Source: Shewanella psychromarinicola
GTDB lineage: Bacteria > Pseudomonadota > Gammaproteobacteria > Enterobacterales > Shewanellaceae
Reading direction: 5' to 3'
Length of the DNA: 64,000 nucleotides
Assembly: GCF_003855155.1 (NCBI RefSeq)
Contig: NZ_CP034073.1
Location: forward strand, 4,092,001 to 4,156,000
The notes under the pieces: model-generated
Told to the model about the DNA's origin: nothing
What the model saw: the letters and a program-made list of their open reading frames with translations, nothing else
Databases searched by the model: none
In this document: positions 49,531 to 60,500 of the stretch, one piece after another
How positions within the stretch are numbered: the stretch's first letter is position 1
Layout of the letters: every line of letters begins with the position of its first letter
Translations under genes and position numbers: made by a program

Positions 49531-50643
49531 TTAATTGAAACGTACTCGCGCTAGCAAATCACCGATCAACATTCCTCGCCAACCACTTAGTAGCAAAGGT
49601 GTTGAGGTCGTTTTATTATTGAAAAGCCATAACAAAAACTCATGAATATGGCGTTTAGAACCAACAAATTCTAATGCAACATTTTCTCGCTCACATAATT
49701 CAGTCAAGACGTTCTTAACCTCTTTAAAAGCTGATTTATAACCAGGTTTAAGCGCAACAATATCAACTTCTTCAGGTAGATTAACTAAATCTGCAGTCGC
49801 CATTACCGTTAATAAGTCTTTGCCATGAATACGTTTTTCTTGATCCGTTAAATCATTTAATTGAGCTAATTCTGCTAACGTGGTCGGTTGTTTTTTGGCT
49901 AATGCAATTAATGCATGATCTTTTACCACAAAACCGAGCGCAAGATTACGGCTTACCGCTTTGTTTAAGCGCCATTTAGCCAATACTTTTAAATAGGCTA
50001 ATTGCTGACTCGATAGCTGAAAGGCATTTTTTACTTTAAGGTAAACGCTGTCGCCTTCTGGCAATGACAAACGCCCTTCAGTCATGCGCTGACCTTCTTC
50101 AAACAACCATTCAATACGATTGTTTGCCGCAAGTTTCTCTTGGAGCTGTGGATATAATTGATACAAATAAAACACATCATTGGCTGCATAGTGTAATTGT
50201 GCTTCAGTGAGTGGACGTTTCATCCAATCGGTACGTGACTCGCCTTTATCTATTTCAACTTGCAAGCATGCATCGACTAGTTTGGCATATCCTAAACCGT
50301 GGCCGAAACCGGCAAGACTAGCAGCTATTTGGCTATCAAATAATGGGCTAGGTTGGCATTCACCGTAATGAGCAAACACCTCAAGATCTTCACTGCATGA
50401 ATGCACTAACTTAACAACATTCGGGTTAGTTAATAATTGCCAAAAAGGGCTTAAATCGGTAATCGCGACCGGATCAATTAATGCTAAGGTCTTGCCATCG
50501 TAGGCTTGAATAAGACCTAATTTAGCATAATAGGTTCGAGTGCGGACAAACTCAGTATCGAGCACCAATAAGGTGCTTTGTTGGTATTGTTCAACTAATG
50601 ACAATAAGCTGGCATCATCATTGATATATTCAAACGTTAACAA
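49531..50643 (-). CDS. rnd: Ribonuclease D
   Basis: 370 residues. The DEDD exonuclease domain is seen in VLDTEFVRTRTYYAKLGLIQ (Asp/Glu pair), HSCSEDLEVFAHYG (second Asp) and LHYAANDVFYLYQLY (Tyr/Asp pair), followed by the HRDC domain (SQQLAYLKVLAKWRLNKAVS). It trims tRNA and other RNA 3' ends. It faces minE. The spacing to fadD (91 bp) includes a terminator for fadD. Confidence 0.94.
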   Translation of the reverse strand: MLTFEYINDDASLLSLVEQYQQSTLLVLDTEFVRTRTYYAKLGLIQAYDGKTLALIDPVAITDLSPFWQLLTNPNVVKLVHSCSEDLEVFAHYGECQPSPLFDSQIAASLAGFGHGLGYAKLVDACLQVEIDKGESRTDWMKRPLTEAQLHYAANDVFYLYQLYPQLQEKLAANNRIEWLFEEGQRMTEGRLSLPEGDSVYLKVKNAFQLSSQQLAYLKVLAKWRLNKAVSRNLALGFVVKDHALIALAKKQPTTLAELAQLNDLTDQEKRIHGKDLLTVMATADLVNLPEEVDIVALKPGYKSAFKEVKNVLTELCERENVALEFVGSKRHIHEFLLWLFNNKTTSTPLLLSGWRGMLIGDLLARVRFN

Positions 50644-50734: not shown

Positions 50735-52408
50735 TTACGCTTTGGTAACTTCATCTCGAAGTTGTCGGCGTAAAATTTTACCCACATTGGTTTTCGGTAA
50801 TTCGTCTCTAAATTCTACCAGCTTAGGAACTTTATATCCCGTTAAATGATGACGGCAGTGCTTAATCAGCTCTTCTTCGGTTAATGATTTGTCTTTTGCG
50901 ACCACAAAAATCTTTACTAACTCGCCACTGGCATCATTGGGAACGCCAACAGCAGCGACTTCAATCACTTTAGGGTGTAAGGCAACGACCTCCTCCACTT
51001 CATTCGGGAATACGTTAAAACCTGACACTAAAATCATGTCTTTTTTACGATCAACAATGAAAAAGAAACCTTTTTCATCCATGTAACCAATATCGCCTGT
51101 TGCTAACCAACCATCTTTATCAATTACAGTAGCTGTTTCTTCCGGACGGTGCCAATAGCCCAGCATGACTTGAGGGCCTTTAGCATATAACTCGCCAGTT
51201 TCGCCTTGAGCCAATACCTTTGAATCTTCATCCCTGATTTGAATAAAGGTCGATGGTGCAGGAAAACCAATCGATCCATTATAACCACTGAGGTTATATG
51301 GGCAGCAAGTCACTAAAGGCGATGCTTCTGTTAAACCATAACCTTCTAATAAACGTGTCTTAGTCAGATTTTGCCATTTATCGGCGACCGCGCGTTGTAC
51401 GGCCATACCACCGCCAATCGACAGTTTTAAGCCAGAAAAATCAAGTTGGGTGAATTCTTCATTGTTCACCAAAGCATTGAATAAGGTATTAACACCGGTC
51501 AATACGGTAAACGGGTACTTTTTCAATTCAGCCACAAATGCGGGAAGATCGCGAGGATTGGTGATAAGTAAATTTTTGCTGCCTTTGTGCAAAAACAGCA
51601 AACAGTTAACCGTAAGGGCAAAAATATGGTACAGCGGCAAGGCTGTCACCACAAACTCAGTGCCATTATCAAGGGCTGGAGAGTAAGCACCATTGGCCTG
51701 TAAAACATTACTCACCACATTTTTATGGCTTAGCATTGCGCCTTTAGATACCCCGGTTGTGCCACCGGTATATTGTAAAAAGGCTAAATCAGCACCCGTA
51801 ATATCCGCTTTAATATACTGCAGACGACGACCTTTTGATAAGGCATCGCGAAACGATAATGCATGAGGTAAATGGTATTTGGGTACTAATCTTTTAATGT
51901 ATTTAACGACAAAATTCACTAAGGTGCGTTTCGGTGCACTAAGTTGATCACCAAGATTGGTAATAATGACCGATTCAATAGGTGTTTGAACGACAATCTT
52001 TTCTAAGGTATGAGCAAAATTTGACACCACTACAATAGCTTTCGCACCTGAATCGACTAGTTGATGCTTTAATTCCCGCGGAGTATAAAGTGGATTAACG
52101 TTAACCACCACCATACCCGCGCGTAAAACACCAAACAGAGCAATAGGATATTGCAACAAATTGGGCATCATCAGGGCAACACGATCACCTTTTTTTAAAT
52201 GCAGTTCGTTTTGTAAATAAGCTGCAAAAGCTCGACTGCGTTCTTCGAGTTTACGGTATGTGATCGTCGCACCCATGTTAATAAAGGCAGGTTGGTCGGC
52301 ATATTTTGCTACTGAATCTTCAAACATATGTACTAAGGAACTGAATTGAGATGGGTCAATTTCGGCCGGAACATGTTCAGGTAAATTATTAATCCAAGGC
52401 TGGTCCAC
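50735..52408 (-). CDS. fadD: Long-chain fatty-acid CoA ligase FadD
   Basis: 557 residues, near E. coli FadD (561). Activates fatty acids to acyl-CoA at the inner membrane, using ATP. Signature motifs: [20 protein letters not shown] (AMP-binding P-loop), [36 protein letters not shown] (adenylation hinge region) and [16 protein letters not shown]. It belongs to the same pathway as fadR, 8 kb away. No FadR operator was found upstream, so control may differ from E. coli (PsrA-type control has been described in Shewanella). Confidence 0.95.
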
Positions 52409-52606: not shown

Positions 52607-53500
52607 TTAACGGCTATTTAGAATAAATGCTCCAATCGATTCGGCCACCTGTTGGGCATTTCCCATATGAAGGTGATGGTCTCCGGATAAATGTACTATT
52701 TCAATATGGGTAAACCATTTATTGGCTTGATCTGTTGATGCGGTTAATTGTTTATAGCCATCATGGCCAATAATCAGTAAAGAAGGCGTGTCACTGGTGG
52801 TCATCAGCGCATCTACCTGATCAAACGTAAATCGGTTCAGCGAATCTAACTTTAATCTAGGGTCACTGCGCCAATGATATTGTCCATCAGTGAGCGCCAT
52901 ATTACGCTTGGTGATCAGTGCACACCATGGCAATGCCAATCCAGTCAGTTGATGGCGAGCTTGAACCGCAACGTCCATAGAGGAATATGTCGGAGCGGGT
53001 CTGGCTAATTGACGATTAAAACGTTGTTGTTGCAGTAAACCTTTACGTAAGCGATCTTTAGCTTGGCTGGAAGACTCTGATAATGGTGCAAGTGCTTCTA
53101 TTAATATAAGTTTATGGATGTTTTCAGCAAGACAAGCATTATAAGCTGACGCCACTATGCCGCCAAGCGAATGACCCAATAAAATAATCGGCCCGGTATC
53201 TTGTGCGATAGCATGGATCACGGCTTGCAGATCATAAATGTAATCGACCCAATGCAATGGATAGCGCCCTGGACGGTGATCTGATAATCCATGTCCAGGC
53301 CAATCAATGCACATTAGTTGAAATGTATCGAACAAACCTTGATCGGCAAAAGCCTGTGCTAAGGGAATAAAACTGTCTGCATTGTCAAGCCAGCCATGCA
53401 AAGCCAATATCATCGGCTTACTAGCATCACCATAGCGTTTCGCAGCAAGGGTTATATGAGCCAACGGCAATTGAATCTCGGCGACGTTAACGTTCAACAT
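52607..53500 (-). CDS. Alpha/beta hydrolase
   Basis: 297 residues. Oxyanion strand ILALHGWLDNADSFIPLAQA, DWPGHGLSDHRPGRYPLHWVD, and the nucleophile elbow GHSLGGIVASAYN (catalytic Ser). The late His lies in SGDHHLHMGNAQQVAESI, and the Asp probably in LLIIGHDGYK. Substrate unknown; the shape suggests an esterase or a serine hydrolase of the kind found near fadD in many Shewanella. It lies 198 bp upstream of fadD on the same strand. Confidence 0.86.
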   Translation of the reverse strand: MLNVNVAEIQLPLAHITLAAKRYGDASKPMILALHGWLDNADSFIPLAQAFADQGLFDTFQLMCIDWPGHGLSDHRPGRYPLHWVDYIYDLQAVIHAIAQDTGPIILLGHSLGGIVASAYNACLAENIHKLILIEALAPLSESSSQAKDRLRKGLLQQQRFNRQLARPAPTYSSMDVAVQARHQLTGLALPWCALITKRNMALTDGQYHWRSDPRLKLDSLNRFTFDQVDALMTTSDTPSLLIIGHDGYKQLTASTDQANKWFTHIEIVHLSGDHHLHMGNAQQVAESIGAFILNSR

Positions 53501-53724: not shown

Positions 53725-54588
53725 TTATTTAGCCGCAGTTTTGGTAAACTTAAGTGTCATACGATCACTTTCACCAATATCAAGGTATTTTTGTTTATCT
53801 TGATCGCCCATCGCTAAACGGGGTGGTAATGTCCACACACCTTTGGGATAATCTTTGCTGTCTTTAGGATTGGCATTTAATTCTGAGTTCGCAGTCAGTT
53901 CAAAACCGTATTTATTGGCAAGTTCAACCATTTGATTTTGTTCCATATAACCACTTTCTGCAGCCATCCCCACGTTTGCTCTGTGCTCGACGACCCCTAA
54001 TGAACCTCCGACTTTTAACACGTCATAAGCGGCTTTAAATACACCTTCTAACTCACCTTTCATGGCCCAATTATGCAAATTACGGAATGTTAATACGTGG
54101 TCTGCAGAGTTATCTTTGCCTAATGAAAATTTAGCCGGTGGATCGAGGGTTACAAACTGAACATTGCCAACGCTCGCTTTGTTGTCACTCACCCATTTTT
54201 CAAATTTAACACCGGCTGATTTATAATAAGCCGTCTGACGGTTATCTTCTGCAGGCTTAGTTTCAAAATTGGCGGCAACATATTGACCTTTTGAGGCTAA
54301 ATAAGGCGCAAGAATTTCAGCATACCAACCACCACCCGGCCATAACTCAATAACCGTCTGTTCAGGCTTTACATCAAAAAAAGCTAATGTTTCTGCAGGA
54401 TGACGATATTGATCACGCAGTTTATTTTCTGTAGACCGAAATTCGCTGGCCACCGCCTTAGCAAGCGCAGCATTGACCTGCGGCGCCGTCACTTTTTTAT
54501 CGGGCATACTATCGGCTGCGTATATTGCGGTCGACATACCTAAACTTGATAAGCCAATTAAGGCTCCTAACATCATGTTACGTTTCAT
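53725..54588 (-). CDS. Exported SAM-dependent methyltransferase-like protein (COG4798)
   Basis: 287 residues with a signal peptide (1-24, ending AIYA). The mature part has a Rossmann-like class I methyltransferase fold: TVIELWPGGGWYAEILAPYL (motif I, GGG), VQFVTLDPPAKF, LTFRNLHNWAMKG and SLGVVEHRANVG. S-adenosylmethionine is not expected in the periplasm, so export of such a protein is odd. It might bind another ligand. Its ATG overlaps the stop of the M50-type gene upstream (ATGA), so the two are coupled. Confidence 0.8.
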   Translation of the reverse strand: MKRNMMLGALIGLSSLGMSTAIYAADSMPDKKVTAPQVNAALAKAVASEFRSTENKLRDQYRHPAETLAFFDVKPEQTVIELWPGGGWYAEILAPYLASKGQYVAANFETKPAEDNRQTAYYKSAGVKFEKWVSDNKASVGNVQFVTLDPPAKFSLGKDNSADHVLTFRNLHNWAMKGELEGVFKAAYDVLKVGGSLGVVEHRANVGMAAESGYMEQNQMVELANKYGFELTANSELNANPKDSKDYPKGVWTLPPRLAMGDQDKQKYLDIGESDRMTLKFTKTAAK

Positions 54589-55262
54589 TTTGACACTCCC
54601 TTTTTTCGACCCACTTTACGCCAGCAGAGCCACAACATATAGCCACTAAATGCTAGCCATGACATTACCCACAACCATGCTGGTAGCCAAGTCATTTTAG
54701 CTAACAAAACCGCATCGCCTTGGCTGCTTAACCCCAATAACACCATTGGACTGGCCATGGCGTTTAAAATAATCATCAGGCCTAATATACGCAGCAAGGT
54801 GTTTAATAGGCTACTATTTTTTAATTTAAGTGGTAACAAAAAAAGTATTATCAAGACGCTAAGAATAATAATTGTTAACAGATCACGAGCCCAGAAAAGT
54901 AACGAAGCCGCCACTGTTATGGCTAACAGGGTGAGTGTAAACCGGATAGTCTGTTTTTGAGTAGCCATGAGGAAGATTGTATATCCCCACAATGCGGCAC
55001 CAAAATAACCGGCATAAGCAATTAATATGCTACTGCCGCCTTGACTAAAACAAAGGCCTGCACCGTTTGGAAATAATTGAATATGACTGACCGAGCCACC
55101 CGTCATTAACGTCGCGATGCCATGAGATAATTCATGGAAATAGCTTTCAAACCATTTAAAAGGAATAGAGATATACGGAAATCGAGTTAATAAAAAAGCC
55201 AGCAGTAATTCAATCATAAAACGGCTGCGACTGGGTATTGCAGACCACGATACATTAGGCAT
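54585..55262 (-). CDS. M50-type membrane metallopeptidase
   Basis: 225 residues from ATG 55262. It has a zinc site FHELSHGIATL (His43, Glu44, His47) next to the first membrane segment, then several hydrophobic segments (about 60-80, 95-115, 120-140, 150-175, 185-210). This fits a peptidase M50B-like or CAAX-like intramembrane protease; the second metal ligand is not clear. The start overlaps the stop of the small gene before it by 8 bases (ATGCCTAA), and its stop overlaps the methyltransferase start. The middle gene of a three-gene operon. Confidence 0.8.
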   Translation of the reverse strand: MPNVSWSAIPSRSRFMIELLLAFLLTRFPYISIPFKWFESYFHELSHGIATLMTGGSVSHIQLFPNGAGLCFSQGGSSILIAYAGYFGAALWGYTIFLMATQKQTIRFTLTLLAITVAASLLFWARDLLTIIILSVLIILFLLPLKLKNSSLLNTLLRILGLMIILNAMASPMVLLGLSSQGDAVLLAKMTWLPAWLWVMSWLAFSGYMLWLCWRKVGRKKGVSK

Positions 55263-55584
55263 ATAAATCAATACCAACCATTTGTTGAATTTCGTCTCTT
55301 TTAACAAAATGCTGTGTAGACAAATATTGCGCTATGGCACCACGTTGACTATGGGTATCACGATCATATTCAACACGTGCCTGCTGTTTAGCCGACAAGG
55401 TTAAATCATCAACAATGACCAAGTTACGGGTTTCAATGCCTTTAACTTCACGGTCTGAAGCAAAAGGGTTGATAATAATAGGTTCGCGGGCCGCAATGAT
55501 CGGTCGATTTCCGGCAACAGTTTGACTCAGACTGATAGGGCCTGATTGATTATTGACCATTAATAATGCTGCATTTATCGTCAT
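55255..55584 (-). CDS. Small hypothetical protein, first gene of the M50 operon
   Basis: 109 residues, soluble, no membrane segment. Sequence starts MTINAALLMVNNQSGPISLS, with a central PIIINPFASDREVKGIETRN and a C-terminus rich in charged helices (KQQARVEYDRDTHSQRG). I do not recognise the family. The start has a GTTAATG context without a strong ribosome site. It is translationally coupled to the M50-type gene. Confidence 0.7.
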   Translation of the reverse strand: MTINAALLMVNNQSGPISLSQTVAGNRPIIAAREPIIINPFASDREVKGIETRNLVIVDDLTLSAKQQARVEYDRDTHSQRGAIAQYLSTQHFVKRDEIQQMVGIDLYA

Positions 55585-55643
55585 TAACGATACCGTTTAC
55601 CTATATTTGTCTCTTATACTTTATGTCAAATAACGCCGAATGG

Positions 55644-56342
55644 CTATTCTCGGCCAGGAAGTTTTTTCCATGTAACCGTATCACGAAGGTACACTGGCGA
55701 AAGTTCATCGACAGAGGTATGTAAACCTTGTTGGTAACCTTGCTGCGCAAGCACGATCATGGCTTTTGCATCTGGGTAAGTTGCTTGACTGCATGGAGTA
55801 ATGTGCGGCGCAATATTCAATAATTGTGGATAGGCTTCAAATCCTGTGCCACAAACACTAATGGTTTGTTGAGTATCGAGTGTCAATTCAATCGCTTCTG
55901 GCGCGCTAACGTGTTCTTCACCCACTAAGGTGGCAATACCATCTTTGGCAATATATTGTCCCCAATACACTTCTTTCATGCGGGCATCAATACAACACAA
56001 TACCTGTGAAGCTCCGAGCTCAATCGCCATTTGCGCCATGGCAGTAAGCGTAGAAATACCAATAACGGGTAAATCTAGCCCCAGTGCTAAACCTTGGGTC
56101 ATGCTAGTACAAATACGAATACCGGTAAAGCTGCCGGGGCCGCGGCCATAAGCAATTAAATCAATATCGGCTAGTGTCACTTTAGCTTCAGCTAAGACGG
56201 CGTCGACCATAGGTAACAAACGTTGGCTATGTTCGCGCGGAGCATCTTCAATACGAGCATAAACGTCGCCGTTAATGGTTAATGCTACTGAGCAAGTTTC
56301 AGTGCAAGTATCAAGCGCGAGGATATGTAACTGCTTAGGCAT
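55644..56342 (-). CDS. tsaB: tRNA t6A biosynthesis protein TsaB
   Basis: 232 residues, the TsaB length. Begins HILALDTCTETCSVALTING, an ASKHA fold, with the conserved YGRGPGSFTGIRICTSMTQG and LALGLDLPVIGISTLTAMA. It forms the TsaB-TsaD-TsaE complex that makes threonylcarbamoyladenosine in ANN-decoding tRNAs. Lies 72 bp before yoaA on the same strand (yoaA first), an arrangement known from gammaproteobacteria. Confidence 0.95.
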   Translation of the reverse strand: MPKQLHILALDTCTETCSVALTINGDVYARIEDAPREHSQRLLPMVDAVLAEAKVTLADIDLIAYGRGPGSFTGIRICTSMTQGLALGLDLPVIGISTLTAMAQMAIELGASQVLCCIDARMKEVYWGQYIAKDGIATLVGEEHVSAPEAIELTLDTQQTISVCGTGFEAYPQLLNIAPHITPCSQATYPDAKAMIVLAQQGYQQGLHTSVDELSPVYLRDTVTWKKLPGRE

Positions 56343-56413: not shown

Positions 56414-58339
56414 TTAAGGGATCTGTTTTAAAAATTGTAATGCGTGCTCTAAGTCGCGAGTTCGCTGCATTGGCGGCAATGAATTAATAAACGCTTGCCC
56501 ATATGCGCGATTCACAATCCGATTATCGCACAAGATAAGCACACCACGATCTTTTTCATCACGGATTAATCTCCCTACGCCCTGCTTTAAACTGATCACC
56601 GCTTGCGGCAATGAAATAGTGGCAAAAGGATCGAGTCCTTGACGCTCAGCATTAGCCGCTCGAGCCTTGTATAATGCGTCATCTGGAGACACAAACGGTA
56701 ATTTATCAATAATCACACAACTGAGTAATTTACCGCGAACATCCACTCCTTCCCAGAAACTGCTGGTTCCCAACAACACCGCATTACCGAGTTGTCGAAA
56801 TTTATTCAATAAACTTTGTTTACTGGCCTGCCCTTGCACTAAAAGCGGATACTTGACTTTACCTTGCAACATTACGGCGACTTGTTGCAGCATATGATGA
56901 CTGGTAAATAAAATAAATGTCCGTCCTTGTGCGGCATTAATGGCTTGAACACACACATCAACCAGTTGTTTTGCTGAATGTTGCGACTGCCCCACCTTGC
57001 CTAAATGACGAGGTACGCAAAATACGGCTTGATTGGGATAGTCAAATGGACTGTCTAAAATGAGTTGCTTTGAGTCAGCCAAGCCTAACTCTTTAGCAAA
57101 ATGCGCTAAGCTGCGATTCACTTGCAATGTCGCGGAAGTAAATATCCAACGCGTATCCTTAACAAACAATTGCTGACATTGTTTGGCGACATTAATCGGG
57201 CTCATGCGAAGCATAATAAACCGAGGGCCAAGTTCTACGCTGTAAGCCGCTTGCAGGTCTTGGCACTCAAAATAATGACGTAATGTCTCAGCCAGCGCCT
57301 GTAATTGCTCAAAGGCAATATCGAGTTGATCATCTCGACCCAGATGATATTGCATATTATTGGCTAAATCGACAAGCGCCTGGTGTAAGCTCCAAGATGT
57401 GCTGGCAAGTGTTTTATGGGCAAGCACTTTGCGCCAATCAGAGACTTGATGTTCAAACATCAAGTTGTGCCATTCACTGAGGGCAATTAAGCCACGCTGA
57501 GCCAGTTGTTCAAGTTGAATGCTGTCGCGGATCACTTCTTTATGCAGTTTGATCACCGCATTGAGTCGTTTATCAATTTCGCGACTTGAAATGTGGCTGC
57601 CAAAGTAACTGATACAGATATCAGGCACTAAATGGGCTTCATCAAAGATGACAACATCTGGGTCCGGCAATAACTCCGCAAAACCAGAGTCCTTCAATAA
57701 TCGGTCTGCAAAAAATAAATGATGATTGACCACTACCACTTTAGCGTCCATAGCTTTAATGCGTGCTTTACGGGTAAAACACACATCATAATGATCACAT
57801 TTTTTACCGGTACAACTTTCTTTGGTGCTGACGACGGTGGGGATCACTTCAGAATGTTCAGCCACCGAGGTTAAATTGCCGATATCGCCATCTTTACTTA
57901 AATGTGCCCACTGGTTAATTTTTAATAAATCATCAATGTAAAATTCAGTAAACTTATTGGCCATTTGCATCTGTTTTTCAAGGCGTAATTGGCATAAATA
58001 ATTATTACGCCCTTTGAGTAATGCAACAGGGACATGAATATCAAGCATGGTTAGCAATGCAGGTAAGTCTTTGAGAAATAACTGTTCTTGAAGATTTTTA
58101 CTGCCAGTACTGATGACCACTTGCTTACCACTGAGCAAGGCAGGGATTAAATACGCGAAGGTTTTGCCCACGCCCGTACCCGCCTCTAAAATCAGATTAT
58201 GCTTTTTAGCAATAGCCTCACTCACCGCAACCGCCATATCTGTTTGGGTCTGGCGATTGTGATAATGATGTACATGTTTTGCTAACGCACCGCGCTCGCT
58301 AAATTCGTGGGTAACGGATTGGGTAAGTGTCGAGCTCAA
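56414..58339 (-). CDS. yoaA: DinG-family DNA helicase YoaA
   Basis: 641 residues, XPD/DinG-type helicase of YoaA length. Walker A LEAGTGVGKTFAYL (51-60 region), DEAH box VVIFDEAHLV, and iron-sulfur cysteines in NYLCQLRLEK and ESCTGKKCDHYDVCF. C-terminal helicase motifs are GTSSFWEGVDVRGKLLSCVI and QGVGRLIRDEKDRG. In E. coli YoaA acts with HolC in repair of damaged forks. No LexA box was found in its promoter. Confidence 0.95.
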   Translation of the reverse strand: MSSTLTQSVTHEFSERGALAKHVHHYHNRQTQTDMAVAVSEAIAKKHNLILEAGTGVGKTFAYLIPALLSGKQVVISTGSKNLQEQLFLKDLPALLTMLDIHVPVALLKGRNNYLCQLRLEKQMQMANKFTEFYIDDLLKINQWAHLSKDGDIGNLTSVAEHSEVIPTVVSTKESCTGKKCDHYDVCFTRKARIKAMDAKVVVVNHHLFFADRLLKDSGFAELLPDPDVVIFDEAHLVPDICISYFGSHISSREIDKRLNAVIKLHKEVIRDSIQLEQLAQRGLIALSEWHNLMFEHQVSDWRKVLAHKTLASTSWSLHQALVDLANNMQYHLGRDDQLDIAFEQLQALAETLRHYFECQDLQAAYSVELGPRFIMLRMSPINVAKQCQQLFVKDTRWIFTSATLQVNRSLAHFAKELGLADSKQLILDSPFDYPNQAVFCVPRHLGKVGQSQHSAKQLVDVCVQAINAAQGRTFILFTSHHMLQQVAVMLQGKVKYPLLVQGQASKQSLLNKFRQLGNAVLLGTSSFWEGVDVRGKLLSCVIIDKLPFVSPDDALYKARAANAERQGLDPFATISLPQAVISLKQGVGRLIRDEKDRGVLILCDNRIVNRAYGQAFINSLPPMQRTRDLEHALQFLKQIP

Positions 58340-59209: not shown

Positions 59210-59440
59210 TTATATCCACTCGGCTATTTTATCTCTAGTGGGTTTACTGCCTTTATGAACCACTTTTTCATCTACCACCACCGCTGGCGTGCTCATAACG
59301 TCATAAGCCATGATTTGCGCCATCTCGGTCACTTTTTCGATTTTGATTGCGACACCCTTTTCATCTGCAACGGCTTGGACCAATTCGGCAGTTTCAAGGC
59401 ATTTTTTACAACCAGAGCCTAATACTTTAATGATTTTCAT
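59210..59440 (-). CDS. Redox-active thioredoxin-fold protein (TM0996/MTH895 type)
   Basis: 76 residues with CxxC (GSGCKKC, Cys11/Cys14) and the cis-Pro loop STPAVVVDEKVVHKGSKPTR. Members of this family are small thiol-disulfide proteins. It lies 24 bp downstream of the DUF318 permease gene on the same strand, a pair conserved in many genomes and often linked to metal or metalloid handling. Its ATG has AAGGAA-like sequence upstream. Confidence 0.9.
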   Translation of the reverse strand: MKIIKVLGSGCKKCLETAELVQAVADEKGVAIKIEKVTEMAQIMAYDVMSTPAVVVDEKVVHKGSKPTRDKIAEWI

Positions 59441-59464
59441 TTTTATTCCTTAATAATTAATTTT

Positions 59465-60478
59465 TTAAATTGAAGATGACAAGGTTGGCGCTAGTGCATT
59501 AAAAATCCAACCGACCAGTGTAAACGCGACTAATAAAAGACAGAATAATATCGCCAGTAAGCGCCATTGCATAACTTGTTTTAGCAAAATAAATTCAGGA
59601 AAACTTGCCGCCACTGTACTCATACAAAATGCCAATGTGGTGCCTATAGGTAGACCATTGATAATCAGGCTTTCCATCACAGGAATAACCCCTGTCGCAT
59701 TGGAATAAAGAGGAATACCCAGCAACACAGCGGCAGGAACAGACCACCATTGTCCGTCACCCAAATGCGCCGCAATCCAACCGTCGGGAACAAAACCATG
59801 TAATGCAGCACCTAAACCGACACCAATAATGACCCATTTCCATACCCGGCCAAAAATATCCAGCATCTCAGTTTTGGCAAATTGATGCCTTTGTGGCAAA
59901 GACAAGGGGTCTGCACTGACGCCATCATCAACCTTATCTTCGCCGCCCTTTTGTTGACCACGTTTTAACGCTTCTGCCGCAAACGATTGCAACCAACGTT
60001 CCGCTTTAATCGTGTCAAGAAATAACCCTCCTAACATGCCCACACTCATGCCGACGGCGACGTACAAAAGAGTAAACTTTATCCCCAATAAACTCATCAG
60101 CAGTAATATTGCCACTTCGTTGATTAAGGGCGAAGTGATCAAAAAACTCATGGTGATCCCCAAAGGGATCCCCGCAGACGTGAAGCCTAAAAACACCGGA
60201 ATACTCGAACAGGAACAAAATGGGGTGACGACACCAAATCCAGCTCCCATCAAGTAACCTACGCCTCGATGTTTACCGGCTAAATAATCCCTGACTCGCT
60301 CCACATTTAACGACGCCCGCATTAGGGCAATGAGATAAATCATCACTAAGAGCAATGCAAAAATTTTAGTGACATCTTCAACAAAGAAATGCAGCGCATC
60401 ACCGAGCTTTGTCTCTGCCGACAAGCCCAATACACTGTAAATAAGCCAAGATGCCAAATCAGAAAAGATTTGAAACAT
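59465..60478 (-). CDS. DUF318/ArsP-like permease
   Basis: 337 residues from ATG 60478 (an in-frame TTG at 60493 is an alternative). Many membrane segments. The cysteine motif TPFCSCSSIPVFLGFTSAGI is the core of the permease family to which ArsP belongs, followed by ITSPLINEVAILLLMSLLG, and a second half with IPLYSNATGVIPVMESLI. A charged loop (GEDKVDDGVSADPLS) joins the halves. Efflux of metalloids or organic arsenicals has been shown for some members; the substrate is not known here. Operon with the thioredoxin-fold gene. Confidence 0.88.
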   Translation of the reverse strand: MFQIFSDLASWLIYSVLGLSAETKLGDALHFFVEDVTKIFALLLVMIYLIALMRASLNVERVRDYLAGKHRGVGYLMGAGFGVVTPFCSCSSIPVFLGFTSAGIPLGITMSFLITSPLINEVAILLLMSLLGIKFTLLYVAVGMSVGMLGGLFLDTIKAERWLQSFAAEALKRGQQKGGEDKVDDGVSADPLSLPQRHQFAKTEMLDIFGRVWKWVIIGVGLGAALHGFVPDGWIAAHLGDGQWWSVPAAVLLGIPLYSNATGVIPVMESLIINGLPIGTTLAFCMSTVAASFPEFILLKQVMQWRLLAILFCLLLVAFTLVGWIFNALAPTLSSSI

Positions 60479-60500
60479 AAATAAAATACTCAAGAAATCG

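Follow-up and report, generated by a model that had tools for sequence, protein, structure and literature searches.

Two groups of described proteins are among the closest relatives in kind of the locus reported here. In classical site-2 proteases (S2Ps) the motif NxxPxxxxDG supplies the aspartate that acts as third metal ligand, and in class I S-adenosylmethionine (SAM) methyltransferases an acidic residue closing strand beta-2 binds the ribose of SAM. We examined a locus of Shewanella psychromarinicola in which a probable membrane protease, a predicted exported protein of methyltransferase fold and a small uncharacterised protein are encoded side by side. The window, meaning the whole 64,000-nucleotide stretch analysed (positions 4,092,001 to 4,156,000 of contig NZ_CP034073.1, forward strand, assembly GCF_003855155.1), comes from a genome consisting of a single contig of 5.13 Mb. 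On its minus strand, the open reading frames (ORFs) at 53725-55584 comprise three intact genes:

55255..55584, minus strand: SML, an uncharacterised small protein of 109 amino acids (ORF, profile searches and homologue alignments)
54585..55262, minus strand: M50B, a multi-helix membrane protein of 225 amino acids, site-2-protease-like, matching Pfam Peptidase_M50B (PF13398; E 8.1e-49, 166.5 bits)
53725..54588, minus strand: MT, a protein of 287 amino acids with an export signal and a class I methyltransferase fold (profile, structure model, Foldseek and signal scan)

As a preliminary description of this DNA had reported, the overlap is 8 bp between SML and M50B (55255-55262) and 4 bp between M50B and MT (54585-54588). 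Rough estimates suggest purifying selection on all three genes: against five Shewanella relatives, the ratio of non-synonymous to synonymous substitution rates (dN/dS) was 0.13-0.17 for SML (three pairs with usable dS), 0.07-0.12 for M50B (four pairs) and 0.03-0.16 for MT (five pairs), values that are rough because dS exceeded 1 in most pairs, those without usable dS being excluded. The same description proposed a single, undescribed three-protein system. We consider it probable that the locus is a composite and not a dedicated three-protein machine, with the separate roles for SML, M50B and MT that are set out below. A backbone of yoaA-tsaB-SML on one side and abH-fadD-rnd on the other would enclose a variable middle, filled according to lineage by M50B, an Slp outer-membrane lipoprotein, MT or combinations of these. 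This reading draws on gene positions, co-occurrence, predicted folds, invariant residues and export-type N-termini. Apart from proximity, nothing found in this analysis joins the three genes in one pathway, and that proximity is marked in Shewanella, limited in a few related families and lacking in the other settings that we inspected.

In the window, the first two of the following backbone genes lie upstream of the trio and the other three downstream:

56414..58339, minus strand: yoaA, flanking backbone gene (NF053712, E 4.9e-244)
55644..56342, minus strand: tsaB, flanking backbone gene (TIGR03725, E 6.3e-62)
52607..53500, minus strand: abH, an alpha/beta hydrolase gene of the backbone, on the far side of the trio (Abhydrolase_6, E 4e-19)
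50735..52408, minus strand: fadD, backbone gene (NF006523, 1064 bits)
49531..50643, minus strand: rnd, backbone gene (TIGR01388, E 1.8e-110)

Profile matches among 148 genomes of the order were found for SML in 60, for M50B in 39 and for MT in 52, with M50B and MT together in 23, M50B only in 16 and MT only in 29. SML lay directly after tsaB in all 49 of the 60 SML-positive genomes that were inspected, namely the window, 27 loci of a first neighbourhood set, G006 (where SML is part of a longer ORF adjoining tsaB) and 20/20 loci of another set; SML is a tsaB-linked family. M50B stood beside it in 22 of these 49, no M50B was recognised in 26, and in G111 the contig ended. The slot itself was occupied by Slp alone in 4/4 tested loci of family f21 (L041, L053, L054, L055) and in Escherichia coli K-12 (yeaY), by M50B alone in five loci of family f16, and by M50B with Slp in 5/5 loci of family f15, four of which also held MT (L031-L034, not L035). 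MT occurred there without M50B in L039 and L040 of family f20 and in L030 (genome G030) of the window's own family. Because the fillers differ among lineages, we regard the slot as a site of changing content within a constant backbone to which SML belongs. The window's genome gave no Slp match, the E. coli control being positive.

Within the genus the trio is far more stable. M50B was matched in 128 of 129 genomes scanned, the remaining one (G651) having neither an M50B nor an MT match, and the closest named M50B matches were those of Shewanella sp. SG41-4 (93% over 209 residues) and S. frigidimarina (91%). Taking the best match per genome and ignoring strand, MT lay at most 600 bp from M50B in 118 of the 128 M50B-positive genomes, one of which (G646) held a remnant with several stops. 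In G635 and G640 the two genes were on different contigs, both at contig starts in G640, and seven genomes (G559, G568, G572, G577, G597, G599 and G668) kept M50B with no adjoining MT, having MT elsewhere, a weak paralogue only or no match. In the last of the ten genomes outside the 118, G639 (L238:3405-5003), M50B and MT are separated by a GMC oxidoreductase gene (PF00732, PF05199) of the same strand. In G611 (L180, L243) M50B is split into two overlapping pieces, and SML, MT and abH look intact.

A second set of 80 named loci (75 Shewanella records and five of Colwellia and kin) was anchored on M50B, and the genus-wide genome counts are less biased than these. Of the 80, 76 have a recognised SML and 69 a recognised MT; two of the eleven loci lacking MT (L108 and L127) end at contig ends. 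One of the four loci lacking SML (L118) also shows no tsaB; tsaB is present in the other three (L139, L154, L167), so SML can be lost or become unrecognisable. SML and M50B overlap or touch in 63/76 loci and M50B and MT in 11/69 by the longest-ORF rule, or 12/69 on recount, figures that depend on the choice of start codon. The median gap between M50B and MT is 82, and all 12 overlapping loci carry an M50B at least 70% identical to that of the window, a grouping by identity and not by a tree.

These distributions bear on the proposal of a dedicated envelope system, in which M50B would process SML or MT and the trio would act together or, in a weaker form, SML and M50B would act as a pair. The overlaps in the window and the intact trio in most genomes of the genus speak for it, as does the fact that, among the 30 inspected of the 39 M50B loci of the order, M50B directly follows SML in 22 and lies elsewhere in eight. 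Those 22 loci belong to four families, a recurrence that is the main point against calling the two genes unrelated and that counts against our composite reading. Set against the dedicated system are the 26 genomes in which SML follows tsaB with no recognised M50B, the 29 of 52 MT-positive genomes of the order with no M50B match, the seven Shewanella genomes without an adjoining MT, the restriction of the M50B-MT overlap to 12 of 69 loci, all with an M50B at least 70% identical to the window's, and the frequency of MT in other neighbourhoods. We judge such a system distinctly unlikely. The expectation that the trio would stay together holds for most genomes of the genus and fails beyond it. On the composite reading, the SML/M50B overlap in Shewanella would reflect shared expression and not shared function. 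A scan for promoters and terminators gave counts with no clear excess over shuffled sequence (26 versus 23.6 and 11 versus 9.1), with a weak stem at 55635-55654 between tsaB and SML, and transcription units are therefore not drawn from it.

SML matched nothing in Pfam or NCBIfam at E<=1. Homologues differ in the length and sequence of the N-terminal part, and the last ~45 residues are conserved, ending ...RDEIQQMVGIDLYA-stop. The stop follows immediately on G-[IVF]-D-x-[YFL]-[AVI] in 76/76 proteins of the named loci and in 27/27 of the order loci; the window's tail codons (55255-55290) encode a GIDLYA-type end, and four of 20 more distant proteins (L221, L222, L225, L233) end differently. This fixed, conserved end suggests a partner-binding tail or docking peptide. 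SML may work with tsaB or yoaA, or alone in the cytoplasm, with its C-terminal end binding the partner. The idea that it is kept chiefly as a substrate of M50B is unlikely, because SML persists without M50B. Outside the order, two SML matches (L064 and L065, E ~2e-4) had no tsaB labelled within 3.2-3.3 kb and may be due to chance.

For M50B, the preliminary description's membrane protease and zinc site both find support, the former in silico. The residues concerned are:

55122..55136, minus strand: HELSH zinc-site motif, M50B residues 43-47 (sequence and homologue alignment)
54714..54716, minus strand: codon of Asp183, candidate third zinc ligand (invariant in 35/35 homologues)

The match to Peptidase_M50B is full-length, and its 166.5 bits compare with a curated cut-off of 26 bits. 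The start is an ATG at 55262; an in-frame TTG at 55307 would give a 240-amino-acid ORF. H43, E44 and H47 are likewise invariant in 35/35 homologues, down to 22% identity, and the HExxH lies inside helix 33-53 of the predicted model. The pattern NxxPxxxxDG was not found: DG is absent, and Asp183 sits in the sequence Gly-Asp-Ala. This departure from the classical context would fit a degenerate membrane protein that keeps only the fold and is no protease, an explanation we consider highly improbable because invariance of H43, E44, H47 and Asp183 would be surprising in a dead enzyme. M50B is probably a zinc protease of the site-2 type, with H43, H47 and Asp183 as presumed metal ligands, Asp183 being a candidate stand-in for the S2P aspartate, and E44 as presumed base. 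The VIA-align list for M50B placed no other family above the S2P rows, a result that excludes nothing.

M50B may cut a segment that spans the membrane, such as the remnant of a signal peptide or part of a small membrane regulator. RseP of E. coli clears remnant signal peptides (PMC8144685), and the slot neighbours MT and Slp are exported proteins or lipoproteins, both of which would suit a protease that mainly clears signal peptides or lipoprotein leaders for the exported products of the slot. M50B is retained, though, with neither MT nor Slp in the slot in the five f16 loci and in L240 and L242, and we regard so specialised a role as very unlikely. No function for Peptidase_M50B was apparent in the titles or opening lines of abstracts among the matches listed in the open-licence literature.

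Several M50B relatives occur in other surroundings. In genus g3 (L042-L045) a divergent M50B lies directly after, or overlaps, an upstream ORF; in L042, the one locus of these labelled with Pfam, it overlaps msrA (peptide methionine sulfoxide reductase), which is preceded by a HlyU-type regulator. A TGA inside the M50B matches of some f2 genomes was considered as a recoding signal and rejected, because the three such loci examined (L042-L044) have an unbroken M50B ORF of 214-228 amino acids, and the match extends as far as the stop of that ORF or beyond it. In G289 (L076:1477-3097) M50B and a distant MT-like gene are divergent, back to back, with no tsaB labelled nearby.

The third protein, MT, is marked by an export-type N-terminus and by changes at the expected SAM site:

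54517..54588, minus strand: signal peptide predicted for MT, covering roughly residues 1-24 (signal scan; model confidence, pLDDT, about 51-56 for residues 1-30)
54322..54348, minus strand: MT motif I, ELWPGGGWY, residues 81-89, with the first Gly replaced by Trp (residue counts in 45 homologues)
54268..54270, minus strand: Asn107 of MT, closing strand beta-2 at a position where Asp or Glu is usual in class I methyltransferases (alignment; model strand 102-107)

By eye, the N-terminus, MKRNMMLGALIGLSSLGMSTAIYA-AD, is a Sec-type signal peptide. A crude rule combining hydropathy and motif, in which long upstream extensions were searched along their whole length, found an export signal or lipobox in 69/69 MT proteins of the named loci and in 44 of 45 homologues hand-picked from MT loci (L080 and L083 being among those left out); five of the 45 have a lipobox-like motif, and the 45th scores 1.49 against a threshold of 1.5. 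In the phylum sample, with ORFs below 80 bits not counted, 23/24 MT ORFs carry an export signal, seven of the 24 being already among the 45. More distant copies from another class of the phylum (L199, L202, L203) show, by eye, twin-arginine-like lipoprotein signals, and each of these loci has a second MT-like ORF; such copies may be exported already folded, perhaps together with their ligand. That one family carries export signals of several types argues for a function outside the cytoplasm.

The predicted model has a seven-stranded Rossmann-like fold of the class I methyltransferase type, its structural neighbours in Foldseek are SAM methyltransferases, and the MT profile matches solved SAM methyltransferases at E 5e-4. 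These findings would also suit an ordinary cytoplasmic SAM methyltransferase whose N-terminal stretch is an inward-facing membrane anchor or a mis-called start. We think this unlikely in view of the hydrophobic core with cleavage-type motif or lipobox in nearly all homologues and of the twin-arginine-like signals. In motif I, compared with GxGxG, Gly85 is kept in 43/45 homologues and Gly87 in 45/45, and the first Gly in 0/45. An acid at the end of beta-2 is found in 0/45 (Gly 14, Asn 11, Ser 8, His 6, Ile 3, Gln 2, Val 1), a position set by sequence alignment and the limits of the model strand and not by a ligand-bound structure; Asn107 aligns with an Asp of 3dh0. The near-invariant blocks FRNLHNW, EHR and IGESDRMTLKF suggest that MT has a real active site. 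Assignment as a UbiE-type quinone methyltransferase, from the RN...LKPGG pattern, was rejected, with PF01209 matching 2/45 homologues at E<=0.01 (best 0.0061).

In silico, both the export of MT and the alteration of its SAM site are supported, and we infer an activity for it. The preliminary description had supposed an exported methyltransferase-like protein that binds a different ligand: the export and the altered site stand, and the ligand remains a live idea. MT may leave by the Sec route, fold outside the cytoplasm and act on an envelope substrate and, because the usual ribose-binding acid is absent, could bind some different ligand, or bind SAM in a non-standard manner. We tentatively propose, as a serious possibility, that MT represents a widespread extracytoplasmic methyltransferase-fold family no longer using SAM in the standard manner, performing other envelope chemistry or drawing on an extracytoplasmic pool of SAM or a related nucleoside. 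MT was matched in 47/229 genomes of the class sample and 31/200 of the phylum sample, some of the latter weakly, and around 29/29 MT loci of the class sample the flanks of ~1.5 kb showed no other labelled gene of the window. In some relatives purH-purD forms a second recurring neighbourhood, with MT between the two in L058 (L058:354-4387, plus strand; Pfam labels for this locus) and ORFs of similar length and the same order in L059 and L061.

Among other observations, abH is split into two ORFs in G071 (L022:1104-2014) and likewise in L116, and in the window a Thioredoxin_3 protein (PF13192, GCKKC motif) adjoins an ArsP_1 permease (PF03773) at 59210-60493, minus strand. In open-licence papers, a search for Shewanella with tsaB, yoaA and fadD gave no match, none was found on COG4798, which we take to be the COG name for MT, and among the matches listed for periplasmic, secreted, exported or extracytoplasmic methyltransferases none concerned the MT family by title. 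The exported methyltransferase-fold family is the most novel part of the locus, and an open-licence literature search alone cannot show a family to be undescribed. If it acts outside the cytoplasm, methylation would occur where SAM is not known, or the fold would have been repurposed in many Pseudomonadota. The locus also offers a testable short S2P-like protease, matched in nearly every genome of the genus, and an uncharacterised family of small proteins linked to tsaB, a gene of t6A tRNA modification.

Compared with known systems, the window shares its backbone with E. coli K-12 (yoaA-tsaB-yeaY-fadD-rnd), where the slot holds only the Slp lipoprotein and SML, M50B, MT and abH are not annotated. 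M50B matches Peptidase_M50B over its full length (E 8e-49) with no difference seen, and no S2P in the PDB was reached from it by sequence. Unlike RseP (9j82), SpoIVFB (8vjl) and MjS2P (3b4r), it lacks the classical DG motif, and its 225 residues are too few to accommodate a further PDZ or CBS domain. MT differs from the class I SAM methyltransferases 3dh0 and 1vl5 in its export-type N-terminus, the replaced first Gly of motif I, the missing acid at the end of beta-2 and a conserved C-terminal block ending IGESDRMTLKF. SpnF (4pne), a cytoplasmic polyketide enzyme and a cyclase of methyltransferase fold, appears in the Foldseek list of MT with no specific kinship shown, and illustrates that this fold can carry out other chemistry.
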